From an uncultured bacterium (lineage in GTDB: Bacteria; Chloroflexota; Anaerolineae; JACIWP01), in NCBI GenBank assembly GCA_903872005.1, contig CAIQJD010000902.1, positions 1 to 8,108 on the forward strand: a stretch of DNA of 8,108 nt, given 5' to 3'. The notes beneath the pieces were generated by a model. That model saw only the letters and a list, made by a program, of their open reading frames with translations. It had not been told where the DNA came from and did no database searches. Below, one piece after another: positions 2,903 through 8,108 of the stretch (position 1 is the first letter of the stretch; each line of letters begins with the position of its first letter). Position numbers and translations under genes: made by a program.

Positions 2903-3637
2903 TCAACCCACCAACCCATTCATCGCCCGCTGGACACGCTGCTCCAGATCAGACAAATGCGCCAGCATCGCGGCTTTGCCTTCCTCCACGTCGCGCTGCG
3001 CCAAAGCGTCCACGATACGCAGATGCTTGGCGACATACTCCTGATGCAAGGCGCTGGAATCAACGGCAGGAAAGCCGGCCATCCCCAACTGCTCCGGGAT
3101 GCGAAACACGGTGATCGGATCGAGCAAATCCTTGAGGATACGGTTGCCGGTGGAATATGCCATTAGGCGATGAAACTGCGTGTGCAGGGCATGCCCCTGC
3201 GCCTGGTCTTGCAGGTAGATGAGGCTATACTCAACGATCAAGGCGCGCATCGCGGCGATCTGCTCCTCCGTCGCTCGCTCGACCGCCTGCTCCACCACCA
3301 TCAGTTCCAGCCCGCGCCGGATGACATACAACTCCCAAGGGGAATAGTCGCCGCGCCGCAGCGAAATGGCAAGGGCCTCAGCCAGCCGCTCGCGGCCGCT
3401 TTCCGTGACGAAGGTCCCCACGCCATGCCGCACATGCACCAGCCCCTTGGTCGCCAGCACCCGCACCGCATCGCGCACTACCGCCCGGCTGACCTCCAAC
3501 TGCGAAGCCAGCTCATTCTCAGTCGGCAAAGTCTCGCCCGGCGCGAACTCGCCGCGCACGATCATCTCTTCAAGGCGATCGGCGATAGTTTCGTGCAGGC
3601 GTTGGCGCTTGACTGGCTGAAAGGCTTCGCGATTCAC
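2903..3637 (-). CDS. GntR-family transcriptional regulator, FadR subfamily (FCD domain)
   Basis: A 244-residue one-component regulator. The N-terminal winged helix-turn-helix occupies about residues 12-78: TIADRLEEMI, then PTENELASQLEVSRAVVRDA carrying the recognition helix, and the wing HVRHGVGTFV. The all-helical FCD ligand domain covers about 100-235, with the RRGLEL start, FHRLMAYSTGN (155-165) and KHLRIVDALAQRDVEEG (204-220). FCD domains usually coordinate a metal through one Asp/Asn and three His. Here H156, H205 and H227 fit, while the usual acidic position appears to be H152. The start is GTG 3637, with GGGAG 8 bases upstream; no ATG is better placed. It lies 191 bases upstream of the binding-lipoprotein gene on the same strand, so it probably senses the imported compound or a product of it. 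FCD regulators often respond to organic or sugar acids, but the ligand here is unknown. Confidence 0.93.
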   Translation of the reverse strand: MNREAFQPVKRQRLHETIADRLEEMIVRGEFAPGETLPTENELASQLEVSRAVVRDAVRVLATKGLVHVRHGVGTFVTESGRERLAEALAISLRRGDYSPWELYVIRRGLELMVVEQAVERATEEQIAAMRALIVEYSLIYLQDQAQGHALHTQFHRLMAYSTGNRILKDLLDPITVFRIPEQLGMAGFPAVDSSALHQEYVAKHLRIVDALAQRDVEEGKAAMLAHLSDLEQRVQRAMNGLVG

Positions 3638-3677: not shown

Positions 3678-3708
3678 GATGACTCAATGGATAGCTCATT
3701 AAGTCATC
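3678..3708. promoter_or_regulatory. Palindromic operator, probably bound by the GntR regulator
   Basis: Arms GATGACTCAATG (3678-3689) and CATTAAGTCATC (3697-3708) are complementary at 11 of 12 positions and are separated by 7 bases. An additional TGACTCA at 3667-3673 repeats part of the left arm. The site lies about 9-39 bases downstream of the start predicted from the consensus promoter at 3723-3751, a typical place for an autorepressor acting as a roadblock. Binding by the adjacent GntR protein is inferred. Confidence 0.65.
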
Positions 3709-3751: not shown

Positions 3752-3810
3752 CCGGCAACGATCCCCGCTCCCGCATATCGCCACCCCACAAACCCGCATC
3801 GCCGGCCAGG

Positions 3811-3843
3811 TTGCCGCACTTTTGCCGCAATTTTCTGACCGCC
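3811..3843 (+). promoter_or_regulatory. Tandem 11-bp direct repeats, likely OmpR-family regulator box, upstream of the two-component operon
   Basis: Two adjacent 11-mers, TTGCCGCACTT (3811-3821) and TTGCCGCAATT (3822-3832), differ at two positions; a degenerate third unit (TTCTGACCGCC) follows. A 7-8 bp core plus an A/T-rich spacer repeating every 11 bp is the layout of PhoB/OmpR-type sites. The first unit begins 67 bp before the TATAAT box. The same arrangement occurs at 6129-6161 ahead of the VTC operon. This suggests autoregulation by the response regulator encoded immediately downstream. Confidence 0.65.
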
Positions 3844-3874
3844 CTACGCAACTTCCGCCGGCCATCCCGGTATA

Positions 3875-3883
3875 TGATATAAT
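3875..3883 (+). promoter_or_regulatory. Extended -10 promoter of the two-component operon
   Basis: TGATATAAT is a perfect extended -10 element (TGn plus TATAAT, 3878-3883). No good -35 box lies 16-18 bases upstream, as expected for a promoter that depends on an extended -10 or on an activator. The predicted start is near 3890, leaving a short leader before the ribosome site AGGAG (3900-3904). Confidence 0.75.
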
Positions 3884-3899
3884 CAAGCTGACCAGAGGT

Positions 3900-3904
3900 A
3901 GGAG
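3900..3904 (+). promoter_or_regulatory. Ribosome binding site fixing the response-regulator start
   Basis: AGGAG lies 8 bases before ATG 3913. The alternative in-frame GTG at 3904 begins on the last base of this AGGAG, so ATG 3913 is the better start; an AGAGG at 3894-3898 leaves the GTG weakly possible. Confidence 0.65.
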
Positions 3905-3912
3905 TGCGTACC

Positions 3913-4614
3913 ATGCGCGAACGAATCTACATCGCCGACGACGAGCCGAACATCCGGGATGTCGTCAAGACCTTCCTGGAGAGCGAGGGGTATCGCGTGG
4001 CCGCCTTCGAGAACGGCGACCGGCTGCTCGCTGCTTTTCGCGAATCCCCTTGCGATCTGGTGATCCTCGATATCATGATGCCCGGATCGAGCGGGTTCAC
4101 GATTTGCGCGGAGCTGCGTAAGATCAGCGCCGTGCCGATCATCATGCTCACGGCACGCGATAGCGATCTGGACTACGCGGCCGGCATCAACCTGGGCAGC
4201 GACGACTATTTCACCAAGCCCTTCTCGGCGCTGGCTCTGGTCATGCGTATCAAAGCCATATTTCGCCGCATCGAGCTGGACCGGACGGTGCAGGAATCGC
4301 CGGCGCCGCGCGCCCTGGCCTTTGGGGGTCTGGAGATTGACGTGCGGAACAAGACGGCAACCCTGAACGGCGCGCCTTTCGAGATGACCCCGAACGAGTA
4401 CAGCCTGCTCTGCTATCTCATGGAAAACAAGGACCGGGCGATATCGCGCGACGAGCTGCTCAACAAAGTCTGGGGCTACGACAGCGAGGTCGAGACGCGC
4501 GCCTCGGACGACACCGTGCGCCGGCTGCGGAAAAAGCTGGCCGGCAGCCGGATCGTGATCGAGACCGTCTGGGGCTTCGGCTTCCGGCTGAAACAAGGTG
4601 AACCCCATGCCTGA
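3913..4614 (+). CDS. OmpR/PhoB-family DNA-binding response regulator
   Basis: A 233-residue cytoplasmic transcription factor of normal family length. The receiver domain (about 3-118) has the acidic pair D9/D10, the phosphoacceptor D53 in VILDIMMPG, the switch T80 in MLTARDSD and K102 in DDYFTKPF. The C-terminal winged-helix domain (about 135-228) has the family pattern LEIDVRNKTATLNG, EYSLLCYLM, WGYD and the recognition helix ending TVRRLRKKL (202-210), then IETVWGFGFRL. It is the first gene of an operon and overlaps the sensor kinase by 8 bases, which points to translational coupling and a cognate pair. Direct repeats with the 11-bp period expected for this family lie upstream of its own promoter and upstream of the VTC operon, so both are plausible targets. 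The input signal is unknown; orthology to PhoB, CssR or any named regulator cannot be claimed from the sequence. Confidence 0.95.
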   Translation: MRERIYIADDEPNIRDVVKTFLESEGYRVAAFENGDRLLAAFRESPCDLVILDIMMPGSSGFTICAELRKISAVPIIMLTARDSDLDYAAGINLGSDDYFTKPFSALALVMRIKAIFRRIELDRTVQESPAPRALAFGGLEIDVRNKTATLNGAPFEMTPNEYSLLCYLMENKDRAISRDELLNKVWGYDSEVETRASDDTVRRLRKKLAGSRIVIETVWGFGFRLKQGEPHA

Positions 4615-6016
4615 CTGGCGCGCATTCAAGGTAAGCATACGCACCAGGATCATGGTGCTCGTTCTAATCATCATTGCCGTCACCTTCGCGGCGATCCTCG
4701 GCGTCTTCAACGTCCTCGTGAATGAGTACATCAGAAACAGCGTCCACGAACAACTGCAAGGCGCGACCGAAACGGCAGGCGCAGGCGAAAAATCCCAGGC
4801 GCCGCCGAATGATCAACCGCCGCCAGGAGCGGACGCCGGCGCGGCGCCCAATATTCGCAAGCCGCCTCGGGGCAGGGTGGGGCAAGCAGAAACCATCGTT
4901 GTCTCCGCAGACTACACGCTCATCTTCCCCGACGCGGGCATGGCATTCTTGCCCAACTACGATGAGAGCAAGAACCTGGCCGCTCAACTGGCAACCGATC
5001 AAATTGATCTGCGTAGCGCCGAAGTGGTGCGCCTGGATACCGGCGAGCGGGAATACTACTGCGTATCCATCGCAACGACGACCGGGAACTCCGCCGGCCA
5101 GGAGTTCGTGATCTACTATGTGGATATGACCACCATCGCCTCCTTCGCAGCGCGCATCAACATCGTCCTGCTCATCGTCATGGGCATCGTGGGAGGGTTG
5201 GCGGCCGTCAGTGTGGCCTTCCTGGCAGATCGCATCGCTCGCCCGATCCGCGAGCTGACGCAGGTCGCGGCGCGCATCGGCGAAGGAGATTTCTCGCGCA
5301 GCAGCGCAGACTATCGGGACATCGAGCTTGCCAATCTGGCGAGCAGCATGAACCGGTCGGCCGGCCAACTGGAAGCATACGACAAAGAGCAGAAGACCTT
5401 CTTCCAAAACGTCTCCCACGAGCTGAGGACGCCTCTACAGGTCATCAAGTGCAACGCCGAAGGCATCGAACACGGCATCCTCGACGTAGTGAAAGCGAGC
5501 CGGGTGATTCTCACGGAAACCGACCGGCTGAGCGAGATGGTCGAAGACCTGCTCTATCTTTCCCGCGTGGACAATATCACGAAGAGCAGCCGCTGGGCGG
5601 AGTGCGACCTGCGGGAGCTGCTTTCCAATGCCGCAGAGCGCCAGCGCGGCCTGGCCGCCCAACGCGGCATCCAGTTCGAAATTGACTTCGACGACGAGCC
5701 GGCGAATCTGCTGTGCGATGAGAAAAGCATCAACCGCGCCTTCTCCAACCTCATGTCGAACGCGATCCGGTATGCGCGCGCCAGGATCACCCTGGCATGT
5801 CACGTCGCCGACCAAGGGATCCGCGTATCGGTGGCCGATGATGGCCCAGGGATCTCGGCCGAAGATCTGCCGCACGTCTTTGACCGGTTCTACCACGGCG
5901 CCGGCGGCTTGCATGGCATCGGTCTCTCCATCGTCAAGGCTGTCGTGAAACAGCATCAGGGCAGCATTGAGGCCAGGAACACGGAGACCGGCACGGTCTT
6001 CACGATTATCTTCTGA
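4607..6016 (+). CDS. Membrane sensor histidine kinase (HAMP, HisKA, HATPase)
   Basis: A 469-residue HPK partner of the preceding regulator. Order of parts: cytoplasmic tip, membrane helix 1 (about 15-38), an extracytoplasmic sensor of about 145 residues, membrane helix 2 (about 184-206), a HAMP linker (about 205-258, with ARPIRELTQVAARIGEGDF), dimerisation/phosphoacceptor domain with FFQNVSHELRTPLQ (phosphorylated H271), and the ATPase domain. The ATPase has the N-box with N385 (NLMSNAIRYA), G1 DDGPGI (411-416), F-box VFDRFYHG and G2 GIGLSIVKA (437 on), with a short ATP lid. The sensor contains a Pro/Gly/Ala-rich unstructured segment (about 58-90), then a compact region with alternating strands (about 96-175) that could be a PAS/Cache-like fold; its ligand is unknown. 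I chose ATG 4607, which overlaps the regulator stop and has AAGGTG 6 bases upstream; an in-frame GTG at 4598 is the alternative. Confidence 0.95.
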   Translation: MPDWRAFKVSIRTRIMVLVLIIIAVTFAAILGVFNVLVNEYIRNSVHEQLQGATETAGAGEKSQAPPNDQPPPGADAGAAPNIRKPPRGRVGQAETIVVSADYTLIFPDAGMAFLPNYDESKNLAAQLATDQIDLRSAEVVRLDTGEREYYCVSIATTTGNSAGQEFVIYYVDMTTIASFAARINIVLLIVMGIVGGLAAVSVAFLADRIARPIRELTQVAARIGEGDFSRSSADYRDIELANLASSMNRSAGQLEAYDKEQKTFFQNVSHELRTPLQVIKCNAEGIEHGILDVVKASRVILTETDRLSEMVEDLLYLSRVDNITKSSRWAECDLRELLSNAAERQRGLAAQRGIQFEIDFDDEPANLLCDEKSINRAFSNLMSNAIRYARARITLACHVADQGIRVSVADDGPGISAEDLPHVFDRFYHGAGGLHGIGLSIVKAVVKQHQGSIEARNTETGTVFTIIF

Positions 6017-6038
6017 AAACTCCGCAAGTACGCGCGCG

Positions 6039-6079
6039 GCGACGCCCATCTCCCCGGCAACGGCGAGATGCGGCGTCGC
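6039..6079 (+). terminator. Long hairpin after the sensor kinase, possible terminator
   Basis: GCGACGCC (6039-6046) pairs exactly with GGCGTCGC (6072-6079). The stem continues with CATCTC (6047-6052) against GAGATG (6065-6070), leaving only C6071 bulged, so the stem has 14 pairs. It begins 23 bases after the kinase stop codon. No U-run follows, so it is either a non-canonical terminator or an mRNA 3'-end stabiliser that separates the two-component operon from the VTC operon. Confidence 0.55.
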
Positions 6080-6128
6080 TCATCTATTCACGGACGCGCG
6101 CAGCACATCTCGTAGGGGACTACCCCGC

Positions 6129-6161
6129 TTGCCGCATTTCTGCGTAATTTCTGCGGCCTCC
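6129..6161 (+). promoter_or_regulatory. Tandem 11-bp direct repeats, likely OmpR-family regulator box, upstream of the VTC operon
   Basis: Three consecutive 11-mers, TTGCCGCATTT (6129-6139), CTGCGTAATTT (6140-6150) and CTGCGGCCTCC (6151-6161), repeat a (T/C)TG-C-G core, with T-rich ends in the first two. The first begins with the same octamer TTGCCGCA as the two units ahead of the response-regulator gene. It starts 62 bp before the TATAAT box, compared with 67 bp at the other promoter. This is the main evidence that the response regulator also controls this operon. Confidence 0.65.
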
Positions 6162-6190
6162 CTTCGGTGATTTGTGCGCCCAGTCGGCTG

Positions 6191-6196
6191 TATAAT
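6191..6196 (+). promoter_or_regulatory. -10 box of the VTC operon promoter
   Basis: A perfect TATAAT, with no recognisable -35 box at the right distance. That is typical of activator-dependent promoters, and the tandem repeats at 6129-6161 would place an activator just upstream. The predicted start is near 6203, leaving a leader of about 53 bases. Confidence 0.7.
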
Positions 6197-6255: not shown

Positions 6256-6942
6256 ATGAGCGAGTTGGTGTACCGCAGCGAACTGAAGCACGTGATCGCT
6301 TGTGCGGATGGTCTGATCATCAAGAGCCGGCTGGCGCACGCGCTGCGCCGTGACCCGAATGCCGGCCCAGACGGCAGCTACCACGTCCGAAGCCTGTATT
6401 TCGATACGCCAGATGACCGGGCGTATCACGACAAGGTGGACGGCGTGCCGATGCGAGAGAAGTTCCGCATCCGCTTCTACAATCTTGATCCGCGTTTCAT
6501 CCGCCTGGAGAAGAAGATCAAGCGCAACGGCGGGGGCGCCAAGCTGATGGCCCGCCTGAGCCAGGCCGAGACGCGCCAGATCATGGACGGAGAGATCGGG
6601 TTCATGCGTGATTCGGAACAGGCGCTACTGCGGGAGTTCTACGTGCGGATGAGGGCCGAACGACTGCTGCCCAGGACGGTGGTGGACTATCGGCGCACGG
6701 CGTACCTGTGCGCGGCCGGCAACGTGCGTGTGACGCTGGACAGCGACATCCGGGCCTCGGTGAGTTCTCTGGACATCTTCGACGCTGAACTGCCGACCGC
6801 ATCGGCCTTTGACGCCAACAAGTGCATCCTGGAAGTGAAGTTCGACGGATTCCTACCCGAATACATCCAGGAACTGATTCAGCTCAACAAGTGCTCGGCT
6901 ACGGCGGCGTCCAAATACACGGCCTGCCGTATCTACATGTAA
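6256..6942 (+). CDS. VTC-domain protein, putative polyphosphate polymerase
   Basis: This 228-residue soluble protein is a stand-alone VTC domain of the triphosphate-tunnel (TTM) superfamily. In yeast Vtc4 the same fold makes inorganic polyphosphate from ATP. The charged strands that line the tunnel are all visible: YRSELKH with E9 and K11; VRSLYFDT (44-51); REKFRIRFYN with R71 and R73; RLEKKIKRN with E85, K86, K87 and K89; VDYRRTAY with R146 and R147; RVTLDSDIRA (158-167); ILEVKFDG with E193 and K195; and the C-terminal SKY (219-221). It has no SPX domain and no membrane helix, unlike eukaryotic Vtc4. The start ATG has GGAG 7 bases upstream. It is the first gene of an operon with a DUF4956 membrane protein and a Cthe_2159-like lipoprotein, a grouping that I recall recurring in other bacteria. 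Polymerase activity is inferred from the fold and residues. Confidence 0.9.
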   Translation: MSELVYRSELKHVIACADGLIIKSRLAHALRRDPNAGPDGSYHVRSLYFDTPDDRAYHDKVDGVPMREKFRIRFYNLDPRFIRLEKKIKRNGGGAKLMARLSQAETRQIMDGEIGFMRDSEQALLREFYVRMRAERLLPRTVVDYRRTAYLCAAGNVRVTLDSDIRASVSSLDIFDAELPTASAFDANKCILEVKFDGFLPEYIQELIQLNKCSATAASKYTACRIYM

Positions 6943-6992: not shown

Positions 6993-7667
6993 ATGACATT
7001 CGCTGACATCTTCAAGTCGAGTTTTCTGGAAACAGCACGGGCGTTCTCATTGACCGACTCAGTCATCGCTCTGGCAGCCGCTTTTCTGATCGGCATGTTC
7101 ATCTTCTGGATCTACAAGCGGACCTTCGCCGGCGTGATGTACTCACGGCCATTCAACATCTCGCTGGTTGCCCTGACCATGCTGACCACCTTCGTCATCC
7201 TGGCGGTCACATCCAACATCATCATCTCCCTCGGCATGGTGGGCGCGCTCTCCATCGTGCGGTTCCGCACGGCGATCAAAGACCCGATGGACTTGGTCTT
7301 CCTGTTCTGGGCCATTGGAGCCGGCATCGTATTGGGAGCAGGGCTGATCCTGCTGGCGGCGCTTGGCTCATTGATCATCGGCGGTATGCTCATCGCCTTC
7401 GTCAGCCGAACAGCGCAGGAAACCCCGTACATGGTGGTCGTCCATTGCGATGACGAGGCCGCCGAAGCCCGAGCCGTAGAGGTGATGAAGAAGAACCTCG
7501 GCAAGTACCGCCTGAAATCCAAGACGGTGGCGGCCGGCAAGGGCATCGAGCTGGTATCGGAGACGCGCTTGAAAGGCAATGAGACCCAATTCGTCAACGA
7601 GATGTCCGCCATCGCCGGGGTCACGAACGTCGTCCTGGTGAGCTACAATGCGGAGTATGCGTCCTAA
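6993..7667 (+). CDS. DUF4956 integral membrane protein
   Basis: A 224-residue protein recognised by the DUF4956 signature SLGMVGALSIVRFRTAIKDP (79-98), which follows a membrane helix and is rich in Gly and Arg. Hydrophobic segments lie at about 23-41, 56-78, 102-121 and 122-137. The C-terminal 80 residues are soluble, with an ACT/ferredoxin-like pattern ending in IAGVTNVVLVSYNAEY. The Gly/Arg-rich signature after a helix, plus a C-terminal small domain, recalls MgtC-type proteins, but that is only a resemblance. AAGGAG lies 8 bases before the ATG, and the gap from the VTC gene is 50 bases, so the two are probably cotranscribed. No function is established that I can name. The partner relationship with a VTC polymerase makes a role in anchoring it, or in moving its product across the membrane, a reasonable hypothesis. 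Confidence 0.9.
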   Translation: MTFADIFKSSFLETARAFSLTDSVIALAAAFLIGMFIFWIYKRTFAGVMYSRPFNISLVALTMLTTFVILAVTSNIIISLGMVGALSIVRFRTAIKDPMDLVFLFWAIGAGIVLGAGLILLAALGSLIIGGMLIAFVSRTAQETPYMVVVHCDDEAAEARAVEVMKKNLGKYRLKSKTVAAGKGIELVSETRLKGNETQFVNEMSAIAGVTNVVLVSYNAEYAS

Positions 7668-7723: not shown

Positions 7724-8108
7724 ATGAAACCGATCAAACGGACTCTTACAGGAATGGTGGCAGCGGCGGCGCTATGCGGCATGCTGCTCACGGGATGCGG
7801 CAGCGCACCAGTCGTTTCGGCCGCCAGTCAGGCGGCGAGCCTGACCGTCGCCAAGGCAGTCGCTGCGGCGCCGGCGGTCAGCGTGCAAGTGGTTGAGGCA
7901 ACGGACATCGCGCAGGAGGATGTCACCGACGCCACGCTGATCACTCTGGGGGATACGATTACCGTGGCCGGGGCGGGCGCAGTCGTGGATCAGAACACCG
8001 TCACGATCATCGCCGGCGGCGCGTACCGCATCAGCGGCGAGCTGCGGGACGGCCAGGTCATCGTCAACTCGGCGGACAAGGAGACGGTCAGGCTGATCCT
8101 GGATGGAG
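7724..8108 (+). CDS. Lipoprotein with Cthe_2159-like carbohydrate-binding domain (3' end beyond window)
   Basis: The visible 128 residues begin with a lipoprotein signal: K3, K5 and R6, a hydrophobic stretch (8-22) and lipobox LLTGC with Cys at 25. An Ala/Val-rich spacer (about 28-60) follows. From about residue 70 the pattern ITLGDTITVAG, NTVTIIAGGAYRISGEL, DGQVIVN and VRLILDG matches the start of the Cthe_2159 carbohydrate-binding family, a right-handed beta-helix protein first described from Clostridium thermocellum that binds acidic polysaccharides or cellulose. Family members are usually several hundred residues long, so most of this one lies outside the window. ATG 7724 has GGAGG 5 bases upstream, and the gene starts 56 bases after the DUF4956 stop, so it is probably the third gene of that operon. 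Family assignment is from pattern recall; the bound polymer is unknown. Confidence 0.82.
   Translation, partial: MKPIKRTLTGMVAAAALCGMLLTGCGSAPVVSAASQAASLTVAKAVAAAPAVSVQVVEATDIAQEDVTDATLITLGDTITVAGAGAVVDQNTVTIIAGGAYRISGELRDGQVIVNSADKETVRLILDG

Follow-up and report, generated by a model that had tools for sequence, protein, structure and literature searches.

A predicted four-unit, 11-bp direct-repeat operator shared by an OmpR/PhoB-type two-component system and a neighbouring VTC-DUF4956 operon

We analysed a stretch of 8,108 nucleotides from an uncultured bacterium of the Anaerolineae (Chloroflexota), hereafter the window, in which genes for a response regulator and a sensor kinase precede an operon for a VTC-domain protein of the polyphosphate polymerase type, a DUF4956 protein and a Cthe_2159 carbohydrate-binding-domain protein. 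Two rows of 11-bp direct repeats, one upstream of the regulator gene and one upstream of the VTC gene, are probably operators of the regulator encoded at 3913-4614, which when phosphorylated would activate the VTC-DUF4956-Cthe_2159 operon and, in this genome, its own operon; from sequence comparison we assign this reading a probability of about 0.85. The sequence comparisons show a site of four units, a fixed distance to the -10 element, conservation between unrelated flanks, co-occurrence with one regulator subfamily and scarcity elsewhere in the genomes scanned.

The octamer TTGCCGCA occurs in the window at 3811, 3822 and 6129, each time on the forward strand, and has no copy on the reverse strand, in agreement with the earlier note on this DNA, which had found these three copies by eye. 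The octamer alone is weak proof, since its enrichment with one mismatch allowed is only mild (17 matches in the window against 10.9 expected, a number attained by 8 of 200 shuffles). Identities between bases 11 apart, counted over 22 bases at a time, have their four highest values in the whole window at 3802, 3803, 6135 and 6136 (15/22 each), and these maxima coincide with the two promoters in which the copies were said to lie. A lag of 11 was the best among lags of 5 to 23 in both intergenic regions (runners-up 13 and 14), and the observed values were attained by 6 and 10 of 2000 dinucleotide shuffles, respectively.

Each box is made up of four 11-bp units, not of two to three as first proposed. 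The predicted operator of the VTC operon covers 6129-6172 on the forward strand with the head-to-tail units TTGCCGCATTT CTGCGTAATTT CTGCGGCCTCC CTTCGGTGATT, of which unit 4, CTTCGGTGATT (6162-6172), is among the two best-conserved units in relatives. The predicted operator of the regulator gene covers 3811-3854 on the same strand (TTGCCGCACTT TTGCCGCAATT TTCTGACCGCC CTACGCAACTT) and is weaker in units 3 and 4, unit 3 (TTCTGACCGCC) agreeing with units 1 and 2 at 3 of 11 positions only. Building a matrix and scanning relatives with it, as the earlier note had proposed, recovered the box at VTC clusters; trained without the window, the matrix ranked 6129 first in the window (41.1) and 3811 second (24.5), with the third-best site at 3.8. 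The score of the regulator box against the full profile, 32.8 bits, comes from a profile built partly from the window sites. A chance repeat was rejected on account of the lag-11 peaks, the matches at orthologous promoters and the held-out matrix.

Both boxes stand at the same distance from a likely -10 element. In the VTC promoter, the hexamer TATAAT at 6191-6196 (+) lies 62 bp from the box start and 18 bp past unit 4, and the four-unit site covers the -35 region, with unit 4 over the -35 position. In the regulator promoter, the likely -10 element is TATGAT at 3873-3878 (+), also 62 bp from the box start, and TATAAT at 3878-3883 (+), 67 bp from it, is an alternative. The distances of 62 and 67 bp to TATAAT (6191 and 3878) given previously were correctly measured, but the hexamer in register in the regulator promoter is TATGAT at 3873, and with it the discrepancy between 62 and 67 bp disappears. 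Neither promoter has a good -35 element: at spacings of 16-18 bp the VTC promoter offers at most 3/6 matches to TTGACA, and the regulator promoter at most 2/6 for either -10 candidate. In all 16 aligned sites, with TATGAT at 3873 among them, a -10-like hexamer was found 61-62 bp past the box start when offsets of 54-68 bp were searched.

In six genomes from the phylum of a Peptococcaceae bacterium (Bacillota), the genes for VTC and for an orthologous regulator (67-77% identity) lie no more than about 5.5 kb apart, and the box is present upstream of VTC in all six (loci L148-L153), between unrelated flanks. The earlier note had named loss of the repeats upstream of orthologous operons as grounds for abandoning the idea; with a regulator of at least 67% identity near VTC, they were retained in six of six genomes. 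In each of L148-L152, the VTC box of the window, used as an unfitted 44-base query, was matched best at the VTC promoter (30-34/44; next 23-25), and in L153 it tied for the top there with the regulator promoter (25/44 each; next 24). Its best matches in four control loci with other regulators were 22-24/44 and never fell at the VTC promoter. The regulator box of the window, too, was matched best at the VTC promoter in those five loci (25-29/44; next 22-24); in L153 its best match was the regulator promoter (25/44).

The likeness of these promoters could in principle reflect shared descent without constraint, as the cluster seemingly moved between phyla recently enough for regulators to remain 75-77% identical. 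This explanation is contradicted by the flank comparison and is scarcely credible: against five ortholog sites, units 1-4 of the VTC box have mean identities of 82, 69, 45 and 80% and the -10 element 70%, whereas the 18-bp spacer (27%) and the flanks (25-27%) are at the level of chance. Because units 1 and 4 are held at 80-82% between a spacer and flanks at chance, the alignments mark the promoter likeness as a footprint, for which shared descent alone does not account. L148 has a terminator-like hairpin (z -2.33; 6 of 200 shuffles equally stable) and, after it, a T-run that reaches into the box.

The held-out scans gave the same assignment. When L152, L153 and the four-member clade were left out of training in turn, each of the six sites was still first in its own locus. 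Across 1,458,045 bases of other loci, all scores above 24 came from clusters containing VTC, a regulator of this subfamily or Cthe_2159 (L001, L003, L004, L006, L120 and duplicate loci). Copies of the box precede Cthe_2159 genes in L001, L004 and L006, and a gene of the same family ends the window operon.

The association between box and regulator was assessed on 69 VTC loci, from which four without a usable match or start codon (L081, L088, L089, L111) and then 14 near-duplicates were removed, leaving 65 and finally 51 promoters, each scanned over 160 bp upstream of the VTC start. Nine promoters scored at least 16.4 and 41 scored -2.1 or less; a tenth box, in L138, lies 176 bp upstream, beyond the scanned stretch (which scores 0.6), and was counted as present from other scans. 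A regulator of the subfamily (50-77% identity) is encoded in the cluster for 9 of these 10 boxes, and none of the 41 box-free promoters is known to have one (Fisher P 3e-9 for 9/9 against 1/42, relatedness ignored). The presence of the regulator was judged from the fetched locus or a genome search, and for some genomes from 1.5-kb flanks only. Two of the loci dropped, L088 (1396-1451, score 10.0) and L111 (1415-1470, score 11.1), have shorter rows of TTGCCACA-type repeats (TTG(C/T)C(G/A)CA-type) before VTC. In both, the distance between the first unit and a -10-like hexamer is 50 bp, shorter by one unit than 61. Because these two score between the groups, the 51 promoters make the presence or absence of the box look more clear-cut than it is. 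The genome of L088 (G006) encodes a related regulator on another contig, and a regulator-profile search of related loci returned mostly non-orthologous regulators, 8 of the best 80 loci reaching 54-70% identity.

The number of sites per genome was estimated with a 70-position profile of 16 sites, which was run on 28 whole genomes of relatives with 150 candidates scored in each, so that weak sites may escape. All 14 matches with E values of 1.5e-8 or less were sites that had built the profile, and no strong site was found in these genomes outside clusters of the VTC, regulator or Cthe_2159 type; frequent copies in genome scans, which would have spoken against the proposal, were thus not seen. 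The next matches (G007:C50, 9e-5, L201; G002:C29, 0.003, L218) each lie ahead of a gene for a trypsin-PDZ (HtrA-like) protease, judged by its likely start, and both genomes encode a related regulator in another place. These two sites hint that the regulon may include an envelope-stress branch. Three further weak matches, in G006, G467 and G002:C8, lie beside the regulator gene on the opposite strand and point at a divergent gene. A 19-base pattern with up to two mismatches had 14 to 60 matches per genome; in 8 of 10 genomes, some of them without this regulator, it had more matches than the reversed control. Its exact form had, among the matches listed, one per genome in G533, G534, G536 and G537, always at the VTC promoter; because sites of this kind had supplied the pattern, what carries information is that exact matches elsewhere were lacking. 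We read the motif as very probably an OmpR/PhoB-family operator of a mostly single-cluster regulon.

Several observations do not fit this assignment easily. By plain identity the regulator box of the window is indistinct, as it reaches 24-26/44 in the four control loci, elsewhere than at the VTC promoter; its place in the orthologous loci is therefore informative and its score is not. The regulator promoters of L148-L151 are without a box. The best match outside the clusters, 23.7 in L065, exceeds the sites of L004 (20.4) and L113 (16.4), which were accepted by their place, and the association counts are drawn partly from related genomes. Genome G376 has a strong VTC box (36.5) and no regulator at an E value of 1e-70, on a 7.8-kb contig of a fragmented assembly, and G121, the genome of L111, has no regulator at the same threshold and two TTGCCACA-type repeats before VTC. 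In G002, G003, G007, G008 and G467, a related regulator (54-70% identity over the matched part) is encoded away from the best VTC gene, which is box-free. Finally, G234 has a regulator 75% identical to that of the window with no box on its contig (best score 6.3) and no VTC gene at an E value of 1e-60; only the first part of its kinase is matched, and the locus (L221, G234:C152) is possibly a decaying copy of the system.

The box in G376 and the box-like repeats in G121, where this regulator was not found, would also suit a different OmpR/PhoB-family regulator of the host acting at these sites. An example is a phosphate-starvation regulator at a Pho box, given that the Pho regulon can include polyphosphate genes. 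The best NCBIfam match of the window regulator is PhoB, the PolR and PhoP sites are likewise direct repeats with an 11-bp period (PMC6754071), and TTCAC-type repeats resembling the PolR/PhoP motif were read by eye at the VTC promoters of L129, L156 and L157, which may possibly be under Pho control. We nevertheless regard another regulator as very improbable. The match to PhoB (193 bits) falls 103 bits short of the equivalog cut-off of 296 bits, the units in the window are of the TTGCCGCA type and not of the GTTCAC type (motif from PMC6754071), and 9 of the 10 boxes accompany the regulator subfamily of the window. Copies of a Pho box would be expected at further phosphate genes, and the 28 genomes of relatives, with 150 candidates scored in each, have no strong site elsewhere; on these grounds, including the lack of copies at many phosphate genes, a Pho box was rejected.

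With the neighbouring regulator retained as the likely ligand, the proposal of a self-contained regulon largely holds. Control of the VTC operon is supported by the conserved box and by its link to the regulator, whereas self-control appears from the sequences to be less general: a separate box at the regulator promoter is present in the window and in L153, whose site scores 17.5 when the training excludes that locus. The regulator gene of L151 and L152 is downstream of VTC-DUF4956-CotH and may share their transcript. That only the VTC box is functional, the copy at 3811 being decayed or a chance resemblance, is a doubtful alternative. It would account for the weak units 3 and 4, for the lack of a box at the L148-L151 regulator promoters and for plain identity finding control loci almost as well (up to 26/44). 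Set against it are the score of the 3811 copy with the window-free matrix (24.5, above the 23.7 of the best outside match in 1.46 Mb), the lag-11 peak, the in-register TATGAT at 62 bp and the weaker, held-out regulator-promoter box of L153.

The sequence features expected of an OmpR/PhoB direct-repeat operator are found here: head-to-tail repeats of 11 bp, a nearby gene for a regulator with receiver and Trans_reg_C domains, a site over the -35 region at a fixed distance to the -10 element, and conservation upstream of orthologous targets together with the regulator. In the mechanism that we propose, the kinase would phosphorylate the regulator, two tandem winged-helix dimers would occupy the four 11-bp units head-to-tail and cover the -35 region, and the bound regulator would bring RNA polymerase to the -10 element, which lies 17-18 bp downstream, and so turn on transcription of the VTC-DUF4956-Cthe_2159 operon; in this genome, the weaker copy would also switch on the regulator-kinase operon. 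Binding, its dependence on phosphorylation, activation over repression and occupancy by two dimers are what we infer from the arrangement of the site. Activation by polymerase contact would be the likeliest mode, because unit 4 covers the -35 position and no good -35 element is present. The box overlaps the -35 region, and this position would equally suit a repressor or dual regulator that keeps VTC off when phosphorylated. The poor -35 elements of both window promoters and the constant distance of 61-62 bp from box to -10 element in 16 of 16 sites would be expected for polymerase contact, and repression is in our judgement unlikely.

The regulator at 3913-4614 (+) has the receiver and winged-helix domains of the OmpR/PhoB family (PF00072, PF00486) and is encoded between the two boxes, as the earlier note had stated. 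Its recognition-helix stretch (ETRA.DDTVRRLR in the window) is nearly identical across the 12 subfamily regulators that were aligned; four alternative regulators, whose genes lie next to VTC genes, have a different one. The VTC promoters accompanying these alternative regulators (L154 in G614, L119, L123 and L124) have TTTAAG/TTAAG-type repeats, as read by eye. The clearest swap is L154, in which a VTC protein 61% identical to that of the window is accompanied by a different regulator and other repeats. Significant 11-bp repeats of other letters were present in 12 of the 41 box-free VTC promoters. At lag 11, L119 alone among the alternative-regulator loci was significant, L123 and L154 (as L140) were not, and L124 is a near-duplicate.

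Many Bacillota VTC-DUF4956 operons may be wired to OmpR/PhoB-family regulators through 11-bp rows, the regulator having been exchanged repeatedly, with the letters following the recognition helix and the geometry kept, and the TTGCCGCA version having moved with its operator as a self-contained module into Chloroflexota. We offer this scenario tentatively, as somewhat short of an even chance, and weight the exchange of regulators lower because of the single significant locus at lag 11. Transfer of the cluster between phyla is in itself likely, though not proven, because, for both the VTC protein and the regulator, close relatives with a name are from Bacillota or unplaced, and because a VTC protein of this kind was found in 1 of 251 genomes sampled from the phylum to which an Anaerolineales genome belongs (E value 1e-40). 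The one genome with such a protein has no regulator at an E value of 1e-50. The closest named relatives of the neighbouring peptide-binding protein are in Anaerolineae, Caldilineaceae and Thermomicrobiaceae, which makes Chloroflexota the probable phylum of the host.

The remaining genes of the system follow on the forward strand. A sensor histidine kinase with HAMP, HisKA and HATPase_c domains (Pfam) is encoded at 4607-6016 and is 52-61% identical to its counterparts in L148-L153. In the gap between the kinase gene and the VTC promoter, a strong hairpin without a T-run at 6038-6080 (-41.9 kcal/mol for the fold of 6030-6100; z -4.98; equally stable shuffles 0/200) probably separates the two transcription units. 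The VTC-domain protein is encoded at 6256-6942 (PF09359, E value 3e-40), the DUF4956 protein at 6993-7667 (PF16316, E value 4e-10) and the Cthe_2159 protein, which has a lipoprotein-like start and is cut by the window end, at 7724-8108 (PF14262). The third gene of the VTC operon encodes a CotH kinase in L148, L151, L152 and L153 and a Cthe_2159 protein in the window. Upstream of the system, an inverted repeat at 3678-3708 (arms GATGACTCAATG / CATTAAGTCATC, 92% complementary and 7 nt apart) sits just upstream of a GntR/FCD regulator gene on the minus strand (2903-3637) and is a possible operator of that regulator.

These results give a widespread, little-studied gene set, consisting of a VTC-type polyphosphate polymerase, DUF4956 and CotH or Cthe_2159, a concrete putative operator and a regulator that is likely dedicated to it. 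The activating signal of this set becomes approachable by way of a single two-component pair and a single short DNA site, and the apparent regulator swaps would be a natural data set on how OmpR/PhoB recognition helices read DNA. The combination of VTC, CotH or Cthe_2159 and possibly HtrA-like targets allows the speculation of an envelope or surface function.

In the open-licence PMC literature searched, no description of the motif, its regulator or a link to VTC operons was found, in line with the earlier impression that the motif was undescribed; the type of operator is known. The same gene set of polyphosphate polymerase, DUF4956 and CotH has been reported as Pel-linked accessory genes, in that case tied to Pel exopolysaccharide genes and in a main text without the word two-component (PMC7112168). 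The OmpR-family regulator RR_1586 of Clostridioides difficile resembles the window regulator in its direct repeat of an 11-nucleotide motif, demonstrated by gel shift, and differs in that the word VTC is absent from the main text of that report (PMC6222199). PolS-PolR of Microlunatus phosphovorus is a two-component system that controls polyphosphate genes via direct repeats with an 11-bp period; its motif, GTTCACnnnnnGTTCaC, is however of two repeats, and its targets include ppk, ppgk and phosphate transport, with VTC unnamed in the portions of the text seen (PMC6754071). The operators of ArcA, PhoB and OmpR are direct repeats 11 bp apart from centre to centre, with between three and five of them at most ArcA sites (PMC3798270). 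ArcA is a different regulator with 176 binding regions, whereas the box is found at one cluster per genome, but its rows of several 11-bp repeats are like the four units of the window, and this precedent, in which three to five repeats follow one another mostly at 11 bp, agrees with four units that would fit two tandem dimers (PMC3798270).

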